From contig JAJYAS010000231.1 of NCBI GenBank assembly GCA_021779415.1, forward strand, positions 1 through 6,159: a stretch of 6,159 nt of DNA. Reading direction: 5' to 3'. This DNA is from Bacillota bacterium (GTDB lineage: Bacteria; Bacillota_B; Desulfitobacteriia; Desulfitobacteriales; Desulfitobacteriaceae). Both the position numbers and the translations under genes were made by a program. The notes below the pieces were generated by a model. It was not told the DNA's origin. It ran no database searches and was given only the letters and a program-made list of their open reading frames with translations. Shown here piece by piece: positions 666-6,159 of this stretch. Each line of letters starts with the position of its first letter. Within the stretch, counting starts at the first letter, position 1.

Positions 666-695
666 TTGACAGTGGGGAAGGAATTCCTGTATCAT
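666..695 (+). promoter_or_regulatory. Promoter of the ilvE-ilvB-ilvN-ilvC-leuC operon
   Basis: A perfect TTGACA (666-671) is followed after 18 bases by TATCAT (690-695), one mismatch from TATAAT. Transcription would start near 702, leaving about 36 nt before the riboswitch aptamer and about 209 nt before the ilvE start. The spacer contains the 10-bp palindrome AGGAATTCCT (679-688). The position directly upstream of a structured leader RNA supports the call. Confidence 0.75.
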
Positions 696-737: not shown

Positions 738-838
738 AAGTGTACCTAGGGTTCCGAGGGAGAGATCCTTGTCTGGTCCGAGCGGTACAGAATCCAAATC
801 GGATTTACACCGTGGGTGGAAAAAACCCAAGCGGAAAG
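738..838 (+). ncRNA. ykkC-class riboswitch aptamer, probable ppGpp-sensing subtype (2a)
   Basis: The segment has the ykkC hallmarks: CTAGGGTTCCG at 746-756, CTGGTCCGAG at 773-782, and a 3' domain GGGTGGAAAAAACCC followed by GCGGAAAG (814-838). Supporting helices are GTGTA (740-744) with TACAC (806-810), AGGGA (757-761) with TCCTT (766-770) closing a GAGA tetraloop, and AATCC (791-795) with GGATT (801-805). ykkC RNAs sense guanidine (subtype 1), ppGpp (2a), PRPP (2b) or other ligands. Subtype 2a RNAs are known upstream of branched-chain amino acid genes, while guanidine RNAs precede efflux or urea-carboxylase genes and PRPP RNAs precede purine genes. The ppGpp call therefore rests on gene context and was not made from the single discriminating nucleotide. 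The wiring to the terminator at 820-878 predicts a ligand-ON switch. Confidence 0.85.
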
Positions 839-878
839 TTCCACATTATTAGGGGACTAAGCTTAGGGTTTTTGTTTT
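820..878 (+). terminator. Riboswitch-controlled intrinsic terminator before ilvE
   Basis: The 5' arm AAAAACCCAAGC (821-832) pairs with GCTTAGGGTTTTT (861-873) over 12 bp, with A865 bulged. The 3' arm merges into a U-rich tract, TTTTTGTTTT (869-878). A small TTAG-GGGA-CTAA hairpin (849-860) sits at the base of the large loop. The 5' arm contains ACCC (825-828), which is also the 3' strand of aptamer helix P3 (GGGT 814-817), so aptamer and terminator cannot fully form together. A ligand-stabilised aptamer would block the terminator and allow transcription into ilvE. Confidence 0.8.
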
Positions 879-1829: not shown

Positions 1830-3518
1830 ATGAGTGAAGAAATAACGGGAATGACAGGGGCAACCGTTTTATTAAAAGCCTTGGAACAGGAAGGCGTTGA
1901 CGTCATCTTTGGATATCCGGGCGGGGTATTGCTGGCCCTATATGATGCCTTATTGGATAGCCCCATTCGACATGTATTGGGACGTCATGAACAAGGGGTG
2001 GTGCATGCTGCAGATGGCTATGCCCGAGTTAGCGGGAAGGTCGGAGTATGCTTAGCCACGTCTGGTCCGGGGGCTACGAATCTAGTTACGGGAATTGCCA
2101 ATGCTTATTTAGACTCTATTCCCATGGTCGTTTTGACGGGGCAGGTTTCCACATCTTTACTGGGAACAGATGCTTTTCAAGAAGCGGATATAACAGGAAT
2201 CACCATGCCCATTACTAAACACGCTTATTTGGTTAAGGATGCCAGAGAAATTCCACGGATTGTCAAAGAGGCATTCTATCTTGCTCGTACTGGTCGACCA
2301 GGTCCGGTGCTCGTCGATCTTCCAAAGGATATTTTATCCGCAGAAGATGTTGTGCCCCTTTCTGCACATATGAAATTAAATGGATACCACGTATTTGACC
2401 AAGTAGATGGTCAAAAAATTAATGAAATACTCGCTGCACTTTCTGAATCTCAAAAGCCCGTTATTTATGCCGGGGGAGGGGTTATCACAGCAGAAGCAGG
2501 GAAAGTCTTAAAGCAGTTATCTGAAAAAGCTGGTTTGCCTGTAGTCACGACGTTGATGGGGATTGGGTGTTTGCCCTCTGATCATCCCAATCTATTAGGT
2601 ATGGTTGGAATGCACGGAACTGTGACTGCGAACTATGCCGTGGATGATTGTGATTTGCTCATTGCGGTGGGGGTACGGTTCGATGATCGTGTGACAAGTG
2701 GTTTGGGGCATACCTTCGCAAACAACGCAAAAGTTATTCATATTGATGTTGATCCTGCAGAGATTGGCAAGGTCGTGAAAACTCATATCCCCATCATTGG
2801 GGATGCTCGATTAGTTCTGGAAGAGATGTTAAACGGCTTGGTGGGTTGTAGCGTCCCCCAATTCACAGACTGGTGGGCGAGATTGAACGCTTGGAAGATC
2901 ACTTATCCTTATAGGTTTGACAGAGACAGACTTACACCACAAATAATCATAGAAAGTGTTGGACAACTTGCCGGAGAGGATACGATTATCGTAACCGATG
3001 TAGGACAGCATCAAATGTGGGTAGCCCAGTTTTATCCCATAATGCACAGTCGCAAACTAACAACGAGTGGCGGACTCGGAACGATGGGCTTTGGCCTTCC
3101 TGCAGCAGTTGGGGCGCAAATAGCATGTCCTGACGATCTAGTCTTTTTGTTCACAGGGGATGGTTCCTTTCAGATGACGATTCAGGAGCTAGCCACCATA
3201 GCCCATAATAAGCTTCCAATTAAAATAGTACTTTTGAATAACGGAGTTCTGGGCATGGTACGCCAATGGCAAAAGATGTTTTGTGACGAACGGTACAGCA
3301 GTATACAACTCGATGATAATCCCGATTTTCTTAAACTAGCGGAAGCCTATGGAATTCGAGGAATCCAAGTCGATTCTACAGAACAAGTTCACAGTGCTGT
3401 TGCGGAGGCAATCAAACATCCCGGGCCAGTGTTGTTGAATTTTACGATCTCGCCACACGAAGATGTTTTGCCAATTATTCCACCAGGTAAAGCCATCACG
3501 GAAATGCTAGGGAGGTAG
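1830..3518 (+). CDS. ilvB: Acetolactate (acetohydroxyacid) synthase, large catalytic subunit
   Basis: The 562-aa ThDP-, Mg- and FAD-dependent enzyme condenses two pyruvates to 2-acetolactate, or pyruvate with 2-ketobutyrate to 2-aceto-2-hydroxybutyrate, the first common step of Val/Leu and Ile synthesis. Seen: the N-terminal PYR domain with GYPGG (28-32) and catalytic Glu54 in RHEQ; the conserved stretch ATSGPGATNLVTGIANAYLD (76-95); the central FAD-associated domain with RFDDRV (283-288); the C-terminal PP domain with the ThDP/Mg motif from GDGS (443-446) to LNN (469-471); and RQWQ with Trp480 at the position tied to herbicide binding. The FAD-type RFDDRV motif and the adjacent regulatory subunit mark it as anabolic AHAS and not the FAD-independent catabolic acetolactate synthase. 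Length is normal for the family and no key residue is missing. The stop codon lies within the ilvN ribosome binding site region, implying coupled translation of the two subunits. Confidence 0.97.
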   Translation: MSEEITGMTGATVLLKALEQEGVDVIFGYPGGVLLALYDALLDSPIRHVLGRHEQGVVHAADGYARVSGKVGVCLATSGPGATNLVTGIANAYLDSIPMVVLTGQVSTSLLGTDAFQEADITGITMPITKHAYLVKDAREIPRIVKEAFYLARTGRPGPVLVDLPKDILSAEDVVPLSAHMKLNGYHVFDQVDGQKINEILAALSESQKPVIYAGGGVITAEAGKVLKQLSEKAGLPVVTTLMGIGCLPSDHPNLLGMVGMHGTVTANYAVDDCDLLIAVGVRFDDRVTSGLGHTFANNAKVIHIDVDPAEIGKVVKTHIPIIGDARLVLEEMLNGLVGCSVPQFTDWWARLNAWKITYPYRFDRDRLTPQIIIESVGQLAGEDTIIVTDVGQHQMWVAQFYPIMHSRKLTTSGGLGTMGFGLPAAVGAQIACPDDLVFLFTGDGSFQMTIQELATIAHNKLPIKIVLLNNGVLGMVRQWQKMFCDERYSSIQLDDNPDFLKLAEAYGIRGIQVDSTEQVHSAVAEAIKHPGPVLLNFTISPHEDVLPIIPPGKAITEMLGR

Positions 3519-3522
3519 AAAC

Positions 3523-4002
3523 ATGTTGCATACACTTGCTGCCCTTGTGGAGAACCATCCCGGTGTTTTAGCCCGGGTGGCTGGACTATTCGCCCGCAGG
3601 GCGTATAATATTGATAGCCTCTCGGTTTGTCAGACGGAGAATCCAGAGCTTTCTAGAATGACGATTGTCGTCAATGGAGATGATCAAATCATTGAGCAAG
3701 TCAGGAATCAACTTAATAAATTAGTGGCTGTCCATACAGTCATGGATTTGACCGAGGAAAATATTGTTGATCGAGAACTGGCATTAGTTCGGGTCAAGGT
3801 CAGTGCGGAAACACGATCAGAGGTTCTCCAAATAGTTGATGTTTTCCGAGGGCGGGTCGTGGATATGGGTAGAAGCAATATTACGGTTGAATTAACAGGG
3901 GATACCGGGAAGCTCGATGCATTTGTTAATTCTATTAGCCCCTATGGGTTAGTTGAATTGGTACGAACAGGGAAGATTGCCATTAAGCGATCTGATGCAT
4001 GA
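3523..4002 (+). CDS. ilvN: Acetolactate synthase, small regulatory subunit
   Basis: The 159-aa product binds the IlvB catalytic subunit, raises its activity and confers feedback inhibition, usually by valine. Seen: an N-terminal ACT domain (about residues 2-75) opening with LAALVENHPGVLARVAGLFA and YNIDSLSV, where the NHPGVL turn forms the effector site in relatives; then the C-terminal domain of small AHAS subunits (about 80-155) with RELALVRVKV and GRVVDMG. The length matches the usual one-ACT bacterial form of about 160-170 aa. The start at 3523 follows AGGGAGG (3509-3515), which overlaps the end of ilvB, and only 4 nt separate the ilvB stop from this ATG, so near-equimolar coupled synthesis is expected. 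The symbol ilvH is also used for this family. Effector specificity is not proven by sequence alone. Confidence 0.96.
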   Translation: MLHTLAALVENHPGVLARVAGLFARRAYNIDSLSVCQTENPELSRMTIVVNGDDQIIEQVRNQLNKLVAVHTVMDLTEENIVDRELALVRVKVSAETRSEVLQIVDVFRGRVVDMGRSNITVELTGDTGKLDAFVNSISPYGLVELVRTGKIAIKRSDA

Positions 4003-4082: not shown

Positions 4083-5081
4083 ATGGCAAAAATGTATTAT
4101 GAAGAAGACGCGAATCTGGAACTTTTAAAAGGTAAAGTAATTGCGGTAATGGGATATGGCAGCCAAGGGCATGCCCAGGCCCAAAACCTTAAGGATTCTG
4201 GACTGAACGTTTTGATTGGACTTCGTCCTGGAAGTGCCCGCTGGGGACGTGCAGAAGCTGCAGGTTTTGAAGTTATGACCGTGGAAGAAGCCGCAAAACG
4301 TGCCGATGTCATACAAATCTTGCTACCGGATGAGAGCCAAAGTAAAGTCTATCAAGCCGAAATTAAACAATATCTTACTGCAGGAAAAGCTCTCGTGTTT
4401 TCACACGGGTTTAATATTCACTTTGGACAAATCGTTCCTCCAAGCGATGTCGACGTTTTCATGGTGGCACCTAAAAGCCCAGGTCACTTGGTACGTCGTA
4501 CCTACACAGAAGGCGCTGGCGTACCCTCATTAATCGCGGTGCATCAAGATGCTACTGGAAAAGCAAAAGAATTAGCACTTGCCTATGCCAAGGGAATTGG
4601 TTCCACTAAAGCTGGCGTTCTAGAAACAACCTTTGGTGAGGAAACAGAAACAGATTTGTTCGGAGAACAAGCAGTCCTATGTGGAGGGACTTCGGAACTT
4701 GTCAAAGCGGGATTTGATACCCTGGTAGAAGCAGGTTATCAGCCGGAAATCGCTTATTTTGAGTGTTTGCACGAACTTAAACTGATTGTCGATTTGATGT
4801 ATGAAGGTGGCTTAAGCTGGATGCGTTATTCAGTTTCAGATACCGCCCAATATGGAGATATGACCATCGGTAAACGAATTATTAACCAAGAAACCCGTAA
4901 AGAAATGAAAAAAGTTCTCGAAGAAATCCAAGACGGAAGATTTGCTAAAGCATGGTTACTTGAGAATCAAGCAAATCGCCCAGCCTTTAACGCTATGACC
5001 CGAAACGAAGAAAAACACCAGATTGAAAAAGTCGGGGAACAACTAAGAGGAATGATGAGCTGGCTGAAAAAACACGAATAA
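4083..5081 (+). CDS. ilvC: Ketol-acid reductoisomerase (class I)
   Basis: The 332-aa Mg-dependent enzyme performs the alkyl migration and NAD(P)H reduction of 2-acetolactate or acetohydroxybutyrate to the dihydroxy acids of Val/Leu and Ile synthesis. Seen: the N-terminal Rossmann domain with [13 protein letters not shown] (24-36) and the cofactor loop LRPGSARW (47-54); His108 in SHGFNIHF; Lys131 in [11 protein letters not shown]; then the all-alpha knotted domain with metal ligands Asp191 and Glu195 (DLFGEQ) and Glu227 and Glu231 (ECLHELK), plus Ser252 in [11 protein letters not shown]. The length is standard for the short class I form, without the duplicated domain of enterobacterial class II. 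The loop Arg48, Ser51 and Arg53 favour NADPH, by inference from family studies. The start [10 protein letters not shown] is typical, with AGAGGAAG upstream. It lies 80 nt after ilvN and 72 nt before leuC, in one direction. Confidence 0.97.
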
Positions 5082-5153: not shown

Positions 5154-6159
5154 ATGTCAATGACTATTTCGGAAAAAATTCTGGCACAACATGCTGGTTT
5201 GGATGAAGTCGTTCCAGGGCAACTGATCACCGCGAAGCTAGATTTAGTCTTAGCAAATGATGTTACAGGCCCAGTCGCAATTCAAGAGTTTGCCAAATTT
5301 GGAACAGATACTGTGTTTGATTCGAGCAAAGTGGCTTTGGTTCCAGACCACTTTGCTCCCAATAAAGATATATTATCTGCGGAGCAGTGTAAGGTAATGC
5401 GTGACTTTGCACGAAAACAAAAGATCGAACATTATTTTGAAGTTGGACGGATGGGAATTGAACATTGCCTCCTCCCTGAGCAAGGACTGACCTTACCAGG
5501 AGACCTGATTATTGGTGCGGACTCACATACCTGTACGTACGGAGCAGTTGGTGCGTTTGCCACAGGAGTAGGAAGCACTGATCTGGCAGCAGGTTTAGCG
5601 ACGGGCGAAGCATGGTTCCGAGTTCCCGAATCCATGAAGTTTATCTTTCATGGGACCAATTTTCAAAAATGGGTCGGGGGCAAAGATCTGATCCTTTATC
5701 TGATAGGAAAACTGGGTGTTGATGGAGCACGCTACCGAGCGATGGAGTTTACAGGCGAAGGAATCTCCGCCTTATCTATGGATAATCGGTTCACGATATG
5801 TAATATGGCAATTGAAGCGGGCGCTAAAAATGGAATTATTGCTCCTGATGAGAAGACATTTGCTTATCTCGAAGGACGGGCACGTCGCTCCTATCCTTTG
5901 CACTATAGTGATAAAGATGCTAAATACCTGGAAGTCCAGGAGTTTAATGTAGCGGATATCCCCTTACAAGTTTCATACCCTCATTCTCCGGAAAATGCTA
6001 AATCCATCCAGGAAGCTAGTGGCATTAAAATTGACCAGGTCGTCATCGGATCCTGTACAAATGGCCGACTGGAAGATCTGCGGATTGCTGCAGACGTCTT
6101 GCGTGGGAAGAAAGTACACCCCGAAATTCGCCTCTTGGTGTTCCCCGGAACCCAAACCA
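5154..6159 (+). CDS. leuC: 3-isopropylmalate dehydratase, large subunit (runs off the right edge)
   Basis: The 335 visible residues belong to the aconitase-superfamily large subunit which, with LeuD, isomerises 2-isopropylmalate to 3-isopropylmalate through a [4Fe-4S] cluster in leucine synthesis. Seen: [10 protein letters not shown] near the N-terminus, the signature [20 protein letters not shown] (122-141), [16 protein letters not shown] (177-192), [20 protein letters not shown] (208-227), and the first cluster ligand Cys301 in IGSCTNGR. The remaining two ligand cysteines and about 85 residues lie beyond the window, judging by the roughly 420-aa length of this LeuC subfamily. The start at 5154 ([10 protein letters not shown]) is 10 nt after GGGAGAG; 5160 (MTISEKIL) is an alternative at 16 nt. 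Homoaconitase-type (HacA) enzymes are close relatives, but the ilv neighbours favour LeuC. The frame is open from the start to the window end. Confidence 0.93.

Follow-up and report, generated by a model that had tools for sequence, protein, structure and literature searches.

What signal controls the branched-chain amino acid genes at this locus, and at which step does it act? The window, by which we mean the whole stretch of 6,159 nucleotides analysed here, carries on its plus strand ilvE (branched-chain aminotransferase, 911-1810), ilvB (acetolactate synthase large subunit, 1830-3518), ilvN (acetolactate synthase small subunit, 3523-4002), ilvC (ketol-acid reductoisomerase, 4083-5081), and leuC (isopropylmalate dehydratase large subunit, 5154-6159, cut by the window end), which score above the cut-offs of NF006185, TIGR00118, TIGR00119, TIGR00465, and NF001614, respectively. 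The best match of the cut LeuC protein was to TIGR02083, but below the TIGR02083 cut-off. Upstream of the leader's intergenic stretch lies a divergent, cut gene resembling zinc alcohol dehydrogenases (protein 6). The window's IlvE shares 95% identity with the IlvE of Desulfosporosinus metallidurans (locus L001) and, on this likeness, the source is a close relative of that species. Since the operon of the nearest relative, at the D. metallidurans locus, runs through seven genes in the order ilvE-ilvB-ilvN-ilvC-leuC-leuD-leuB (leuD and leuB by NCBIfam), the window's operon probably has seven as well, rather than the five of the original prediction, which are those visible before the window ends within leuC. 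Locus L125 has the order ilvE-B-N-C-leuA-leuB (leuA by NCBIfam, the others by reading), and in locus L128 an ilvD-like gene sits between ilvE and ilvB.

Only one Rfam family, RF00442 (Guanidine-I), matched the window at E values up to 1. The match spans 735-836 (55.3 bits, E = 4.1e-8) and falls below the gathering score of 63, as expected because the model is not named for the subtype proposed below. Together with our alignments, this match reveals that the ykkC core fold and the conserved core sequence are present. Taken by the name of the family, the leader would be a guanidine-I riboswitch.

RF00442 turned up in 46 of the 73 genomes of the host's order that we searched. We sorted 108 match loci and the window by tblastn of the 1.5 kb that follow each RNA, which gave 35 ilvE (window included), 22 cimA, 29 purE, 9 SMR-type, and 3 urea-carboxylase-associated leaders, and 11 without a matching seed gene. 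NCBIfam confirmed one representative each of cimA and purE, as well as the ilvD behind L051; the SMR representative had no NCBIfam match at E 1e-30, and the SMR and urea-carboxylase labels rest on reading of the sequences. The 11 of 109 lacking a downstream seed gene were assigned to the ilvE set (L051), the purE set (L094, L119, and L123), or the guanidine set (L016, L017, and L041), or went unused (L030, L061, with a genome match of 50.1 bits, L109, and L120). Three weak matches (G043:C222, G034:C142, and G037:C35) were left out. The L051 leader is of the ilvE type and stands ahead of ilvD rather than ilvE. Many of the same genomes carry a second ppGpp-like ykkC RNA before citramalate synthase (the cimA loci, L052 and 21 others), with an AGAA/TTCT-type P0 and a terminator of its own. 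Most of the purE aptamers listed lack the usual TTCCG/CTGG arm. At L109:1527-1654, a ykkC-like RNA (43.1 bits) has G where guanidine-I has A and subtypes 2a/2b a pyrimidine; its next frame appears CutA-like, by reading only.

Two bases are described as deciding the ligand of ykkC RNAs: one that is A in guanidine-I and a pyrimidine in 2a/2b, and G96 of PRPP aptamers, where a G-to-A change converted an aptamer for PRPP into one for ppGpp (both as presented in PMC6031431). Positions 782-783 of the window, G and C, correspond to G48 and C49 of the PRPP aptamer, the second of which is A in guanidine-I according to the same account (PMC6031431). At the position of 783, the base is C in 35/35 ilvE and 21/22 cimA leaders, a pyrimidine in 29/29 purE leaders, and A in 12/12 SMR- or urea-carboxylase-linked RNAs; the cimA exception, L118, has an indel there. 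Comparison of ilvE and purE leaders places A830 at position 96, which is A in all 35 ilvE leaders, in the context CAAGCGG (28) or CGAGCGG (7), and G in all 29 purE leaders, in the context CAGGCGG (27) or CAGACGG (2). For cimA leaders, the base at position 96 varies with the alignment used. C783 thus speaks against guanidine and A830 against PRPP, and the two bases agree.

Covariance models built from the leaders themselves gave the same answer. Model R1 was trained on 9 divergent ilvE-type and 13 cimA leaders, with the window and the 20 closer ilvE leaders excluded, R2 on 20 purE-type RNAs, and R3 on 15 guanidine-type RNAs, and scores were computed over 41 chosen sources. The window scored 95.5 bits with R1 (ppGpp), 45.4 bits with R2 (PRPP), and 45.8 bits with R3 (guanidine), so that neither competing model scored better. 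All 28 ilvE/cimA leaders, including the window and none of them used in training, scored best with R1 (at least 90.2 bits, and at most 48.7 with the other models), as did 9/9 held-out purE-type RNAs with R2 (at least 79.0, and at most 51.8 with the others); two of these nine, L119 and L123, have no purE gene downstream. Four guanidine RNAs, themselves in training, scored best on R3. Since R1 was trained on the same gene families, this comparison separates the types by descent as well as by ligand. The original prediction had placed the leader in the ppGpp subtype (2a) from the genes that follow it; those genes, ilvE-ilvB-ilvN-ilvC-leuC, are branched-chain genes as expected of this subtype, and the models and specificity bases now also point to ppGpp.

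These data bear on both ligands that other ykkC RNAs would suggest. Guanidine-I RNAs share the overall ykkC fold with the leader, and theirs is the model that finds it; however, they are described as lacking the closing helix P0 (PMC6031431) and have A at the position of C783, while the window has P0 and C. With the sub-gathering RF00442 score, 45.8 against 95.5 bits on the ilvE/cimA model, and no guanidine gene among the six window proteins scanned, the chance that this is a guanidine sensor is very small. A PRPP riboswitch (subtype 2b) ahead of amino acid genes is another candidate, as P0 and a pyrimidine at 783 are common to purE RNAs of the same order and, in the account of the T. mathranii PRPP riboswitch, that RNA shares the fold, P0, and a pyrimidine at the A46/C49 position (PMC6031431). 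The T. mathranii RNA and the 29/29 purE RNAs have G at position 96, whereas the window has A, and the PRPP model lags at 45.4 against 95.5 bits. In addition, a purine riboswitch lies directly upstream in 3/3 purE loci scanned and in 0/14 ilvE-type loci (gathering score). In those three loci (L027, L032, and L087), RF00167 is directly 5′ of the PRPP-type aptamer, an arrangement described as a guanine-PRPP tandem (PMC5912903). A PRPP sensor before ilvE is thus highly improbable.

The aptamer is closed by P0, in which GGAA at 736-739 pairs with TTCC at 839-842. All four pairs form in 31/31 chosen rows of our alignment, and two of the four are changed on both sides from GC to AU, giving the variants GGAA/TTCC, AGAA/TTCT, and GAAA/TTTC. 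The figure of 31/31 is partly by construction, because the rows were cut with patterns naming the P0 letters; the change between groups is not. Within P0, P1 joins 741-746 to 784-789 (placed by the Rfam and 31-row alignments; 98.9% of cells paired, both sides changed in two pairs), and the second ykkC hairpin joins 791-795 to 801-805 (98.1% of cells paired, changes on both sides in 5/5 pairs). These are followed by the conserved ACAC at 807-810, invariant in alignments A4 and A5 (defined below), in which C808 is the expected counterpart of C75, the partner of the ligand's guanine in the description of PMC6031431. This mapping relies on the distance of 21 from C75 to G96 in the paper's numbering, which recurs in 29/29 purE leaders. 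In the third hairpin (814-828), GGGT 814-817 pairs with ACCC 825-828, as seen in the sequence and the Rfam alignment; 77.4% of cells pair in the window's register over 31 rows of the three types. The original prediction had this hairpin, the terminator arms, and the T-rich tail in their correct places. Its span began at 738, inside the 5′ strand of P0, so the closing helix had been overlooked.

We compared these pairs with shuffled alignments. Alignment A4 holds the 25 of 35 ilvE-type rows with a short first arm, and A5 holds 31 rows chosen from 84; neither includes the five exact duplicates or L122, which has no clear P0. Over the 31 rows of three types, 93.6% of cells hold the aptamer pairs (shuffles, 81.7%; slid structures, at most 50.0%) and 12 of 25 pairs are changed on both sides (shuffles, 8.3). 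Further pair types showed no excess in the three-type alignment (24 versus 23.5 in shuffles), while the other four measures exceed the shuffles. Many aptamer-core columns are invariant across the 25 ilvE-type leaders. In four other ilvE leaders (L035, L039, L075, and L111), the first arm is extended by an insertion of about 40 bases that the window does not have.

Downstream, the RNA can fold into a terminator that uses strands of the aptamer. Its basal stem pairs 821-832, which overlaps the 3′ strand of the third hairpin, with 861-873, its apical stem pairs 837-842 with 853-858 and so takes up the 3′ strand of P0, and a T-rich tract, TTTTTGTTTT, covers 869-878. RNA 730-882 folds at -48.1 kcal/mol, compared to a shuffle mean of -39.2 (z -2.5; 0/200 as good). 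A simple terminator scan of 400-1000 did not list the ilvE-leader terminator on the plus strand; that scan looks for single uninterrupted stems, and the stem here is broken by an internal loop. Within 25 ilvE-type leaders, covariation of the terminator is weak, as 90.0% of cells are paired versus 89.3% in shuffles and one pair is changed on both sides. The competing pairings recur in minimum-energy folds of the 35 ilvE-type leaders (the window and 34 relatives, one an ilvD leader), where the 3′ strand of P0 pairs with the downstream terminator sequence in 35/35 and that of the third hairpin in 33/35. In de-duplicated sets folded in the same way, the 3′ strand of P0 also pairs downstream in 20/20 cimA and 29/29 purE-type leaders.

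To follow the exchange, we used sequential partition-function folds starting at 731. The probability of P0 was 0.64-0.86 for 3′ ends at 842-854. At 3′ end 860, the apical terminator stem reached 0.73 and P0 was down to 0.03, and the third hairpin went from 0.96 at 866 to 0 at 872, as the basal stem reached 0.93. With a transcription start near 702, the energy model gave P0 at most 0.21. The computed folds thus predict that the terminator and P0 are mutually exclusive, the architecture of an ON switch that the original prediction had proposed for this ykkC RNA, and the sequential folds suggest that the terminator displaces P0 first and the third hairpin second. The helix first singled out, 814-828, does share a strand with the terminator, but it is P0 that would give way first.

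A model that accommodates these results is that the leader is a ykkC subtype 2a sensor of ppGpp/pppGpp and, as a transcriptional ON switch, controls the ilv-leu operon, a reading to which we assign a probability of about 0.94. As polymerase passes approximately 842-854, the four-way-junction aptamer could close with P0 (736-739 with 839-842). Both P0 and the third hairpin would be stabilised by bound ppGpp, which would prevent formation of the terminator (821-873) and allow transcription of ilvE and the downstream genes. In ligand-free RNA, the 3′ strand of P0 would be captured by the apical terminator stem (837-842 with 853-858); the third hairpin would next be opened by the basal stem (821-832 with 861-873), and polymerase would stop near 878. 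What our computations show of this model is the aptamer with its subtype, P0, the genes, and the pairings that exclude one another.

The ligand's identity, its binding, and the direction of control would follow by analogy to a tested relative, the subtype 2a ppGpp riboswitch of Desulfitobacterium hafniense ilvE. This RNA precedes the same gene in a sister genus of Desulfosporosinus within the same family, Desulfitobacteriaceae. Its binding of ppGpp is described as regulating ilvE termination (PMC10112252), and it is presented as the sensor of a luciferase reporter that responds to (p)ppGpp (PMC12373219). The D. hafniense copy has been tested, while that of the window is known from its sequence and has the gene and the family in common with it. 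The arrangement is therefore an already known system, with a leader of the same gene reported, and used as a reporter, in the sister genus; the window's copy was not found in print, and the genus Desulfosporosinus was absent from the ykkC/PRPP riboswitch literature searched. The ppGpp riboswitch class itself was reportedly described by Sherlock et al. in PNAS in 2018. Subtype 2a comprises ppGpp riboswitches for branched-chain and glutamate genes that are ON switches, in the accounts of PMC5912903, PMC7266159, and PMC6031431. The ppGpp riboswitch of Clostridiales bacterium oral taxon 876 likewise has a four-way junction, and ppGpp is reported to stabilise its closing helix, called P1 there and P0 here, against the terminator (PMC10687018). 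Our computed P0-first order agrees with this published model, although the organism differs and the terminator reported there comprises nucleotides 76 to 134 of that RNA (PMC10687018).

Another nucleotide, namely pppGpp, pGpp, or a nucleoside diphosphate (subtype 2c), could be bound more tightly than ppGpp, as the preference between ppGpp and pppGpp differs among aptamers of this class. The D. hafniense ilvE RNA is reported to lack such a preference (PMC12373219). Subtype 2c, on the other hand, is described as accompanying NUDIX and HAD hydrolases (PMC7266159), not branched-chain genes. We regard tighter binding of another nucleotide as quite improbable.

Upstream of the ppGpp aptamer, a promoter-like site, TTGACA-18-TATCAT (666-695, plus strand), has 11/12 matches; three such sites were found in 400-1000, where shuffles average 1.7 (sd 1.3). 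Of the 35 ilvE-type leaders, 26 have a TTGACA-(17-19)-TATCAT-like pattern and nine divergent ones do not, which leaves the promoter uncertain. Two dyad-like blocks lie nearby: TGTATCATATACA at 688-700, found within two mismatches in 30/35 ilvE-type leaders, and TGTAATAGAACA at 719-730, for which TGTAATATAACA is found within two mismatches in 34/35. Both were absent from 34 control stretches 310-420 bases upstream. The blocks may equally be promoter elements. That they are operators of an undescribed regulator of branched-chain synthesis, besides the ppGpp riboswitch, is an unlikely idea: the operon would then respond to two signals, a protein at initiation and ppGpp at elongation.

In Bacillus, the corresponding position of the ilv-leu leader is occupied by a T-box. 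We detected no T-box (RF00230) in the window at E values up to 1, nor in 14 ilvE-type loci at the gathering score. The window also had no match to the CodY box consensus, AATTTTCNGAAAATT, at up to three mismatches, where 1.0 is expected by chance. This null result says little, because codY is present in 9/9 relatives examined (one of ten genomes, G009, was left out); the same nine all have a RelA/SpoT domain and T-boxes elsewhere in the genome. The ppGpp riboswitch thus stands where Bacillus has its T-box, as originally proposed, while replacement of CodY control, the other half of that proposal, is only putative given the retained codY genes.

In at least 7/9 genomes searched, among the matches listed, the strand that carries the ilvE aptamer also has a T-box 7.2 to 9.4 kb further downstream. 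We considered it as a second branched-chain control and rejected it: since in the five loci read (L124-L128) it sits between the ilv-leu operon and proC-like and proB-like genes (proC and proB confirmed by NCBIfam in L126 only), it is presumably a separate, proline leader. In G001, the T-box found 8 kb before the cimA aptamer precedes valS and was likewise discarded as part of the system. T-box/ppGpp tandem leaders, as described in PMC9481103, are also branched-chain leaders with a ppGpp aptamer; no T-box was found in the window's leader.

The codY genes and the conserved dyad-like blocks would also fit a relict aptamer, with the operon governed by a plain terminator or by a protein regulator. 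The many invariant core columns over 25 leaders argue against such decay, as does the retention of terminator pairing for the P0 strand (35/35) and the third hairpin (33/35), and we see very little chance that the aptamer has lost its function.

The aptamer is not universal at ilvE among relatives. Scanning 11 ilvE loci revealed RF00442 before ilvE in seven (L001, L003, L004, L005, L007, L008, and L009). At the thresholds used, three (L006, L010, and L013) had no aptamer before ilvE, its place being taken in L010 by a T-box; locus L002 starts just 18 bases upstream of ilvE.

Rfam gave the ilvE leaders no label other than Guanidine-I, so automatic annotation can assign a wrong ligand. T-box/'Guanidine-' pairs before ilv genes are listed in a survey from 2025 (PMC12452182), and these may be ppGpp-type RNAs mislabelled by annotation. 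The ilvE (ppGpp-type) and purE (PRPP-type) RNAs of the same genomes provide a natural control, since they differ consistently at the ligand-setting base. Our results support the view that riboswitches of the ppGpp class are widespread regulators of the ilv-leu operon in this group.
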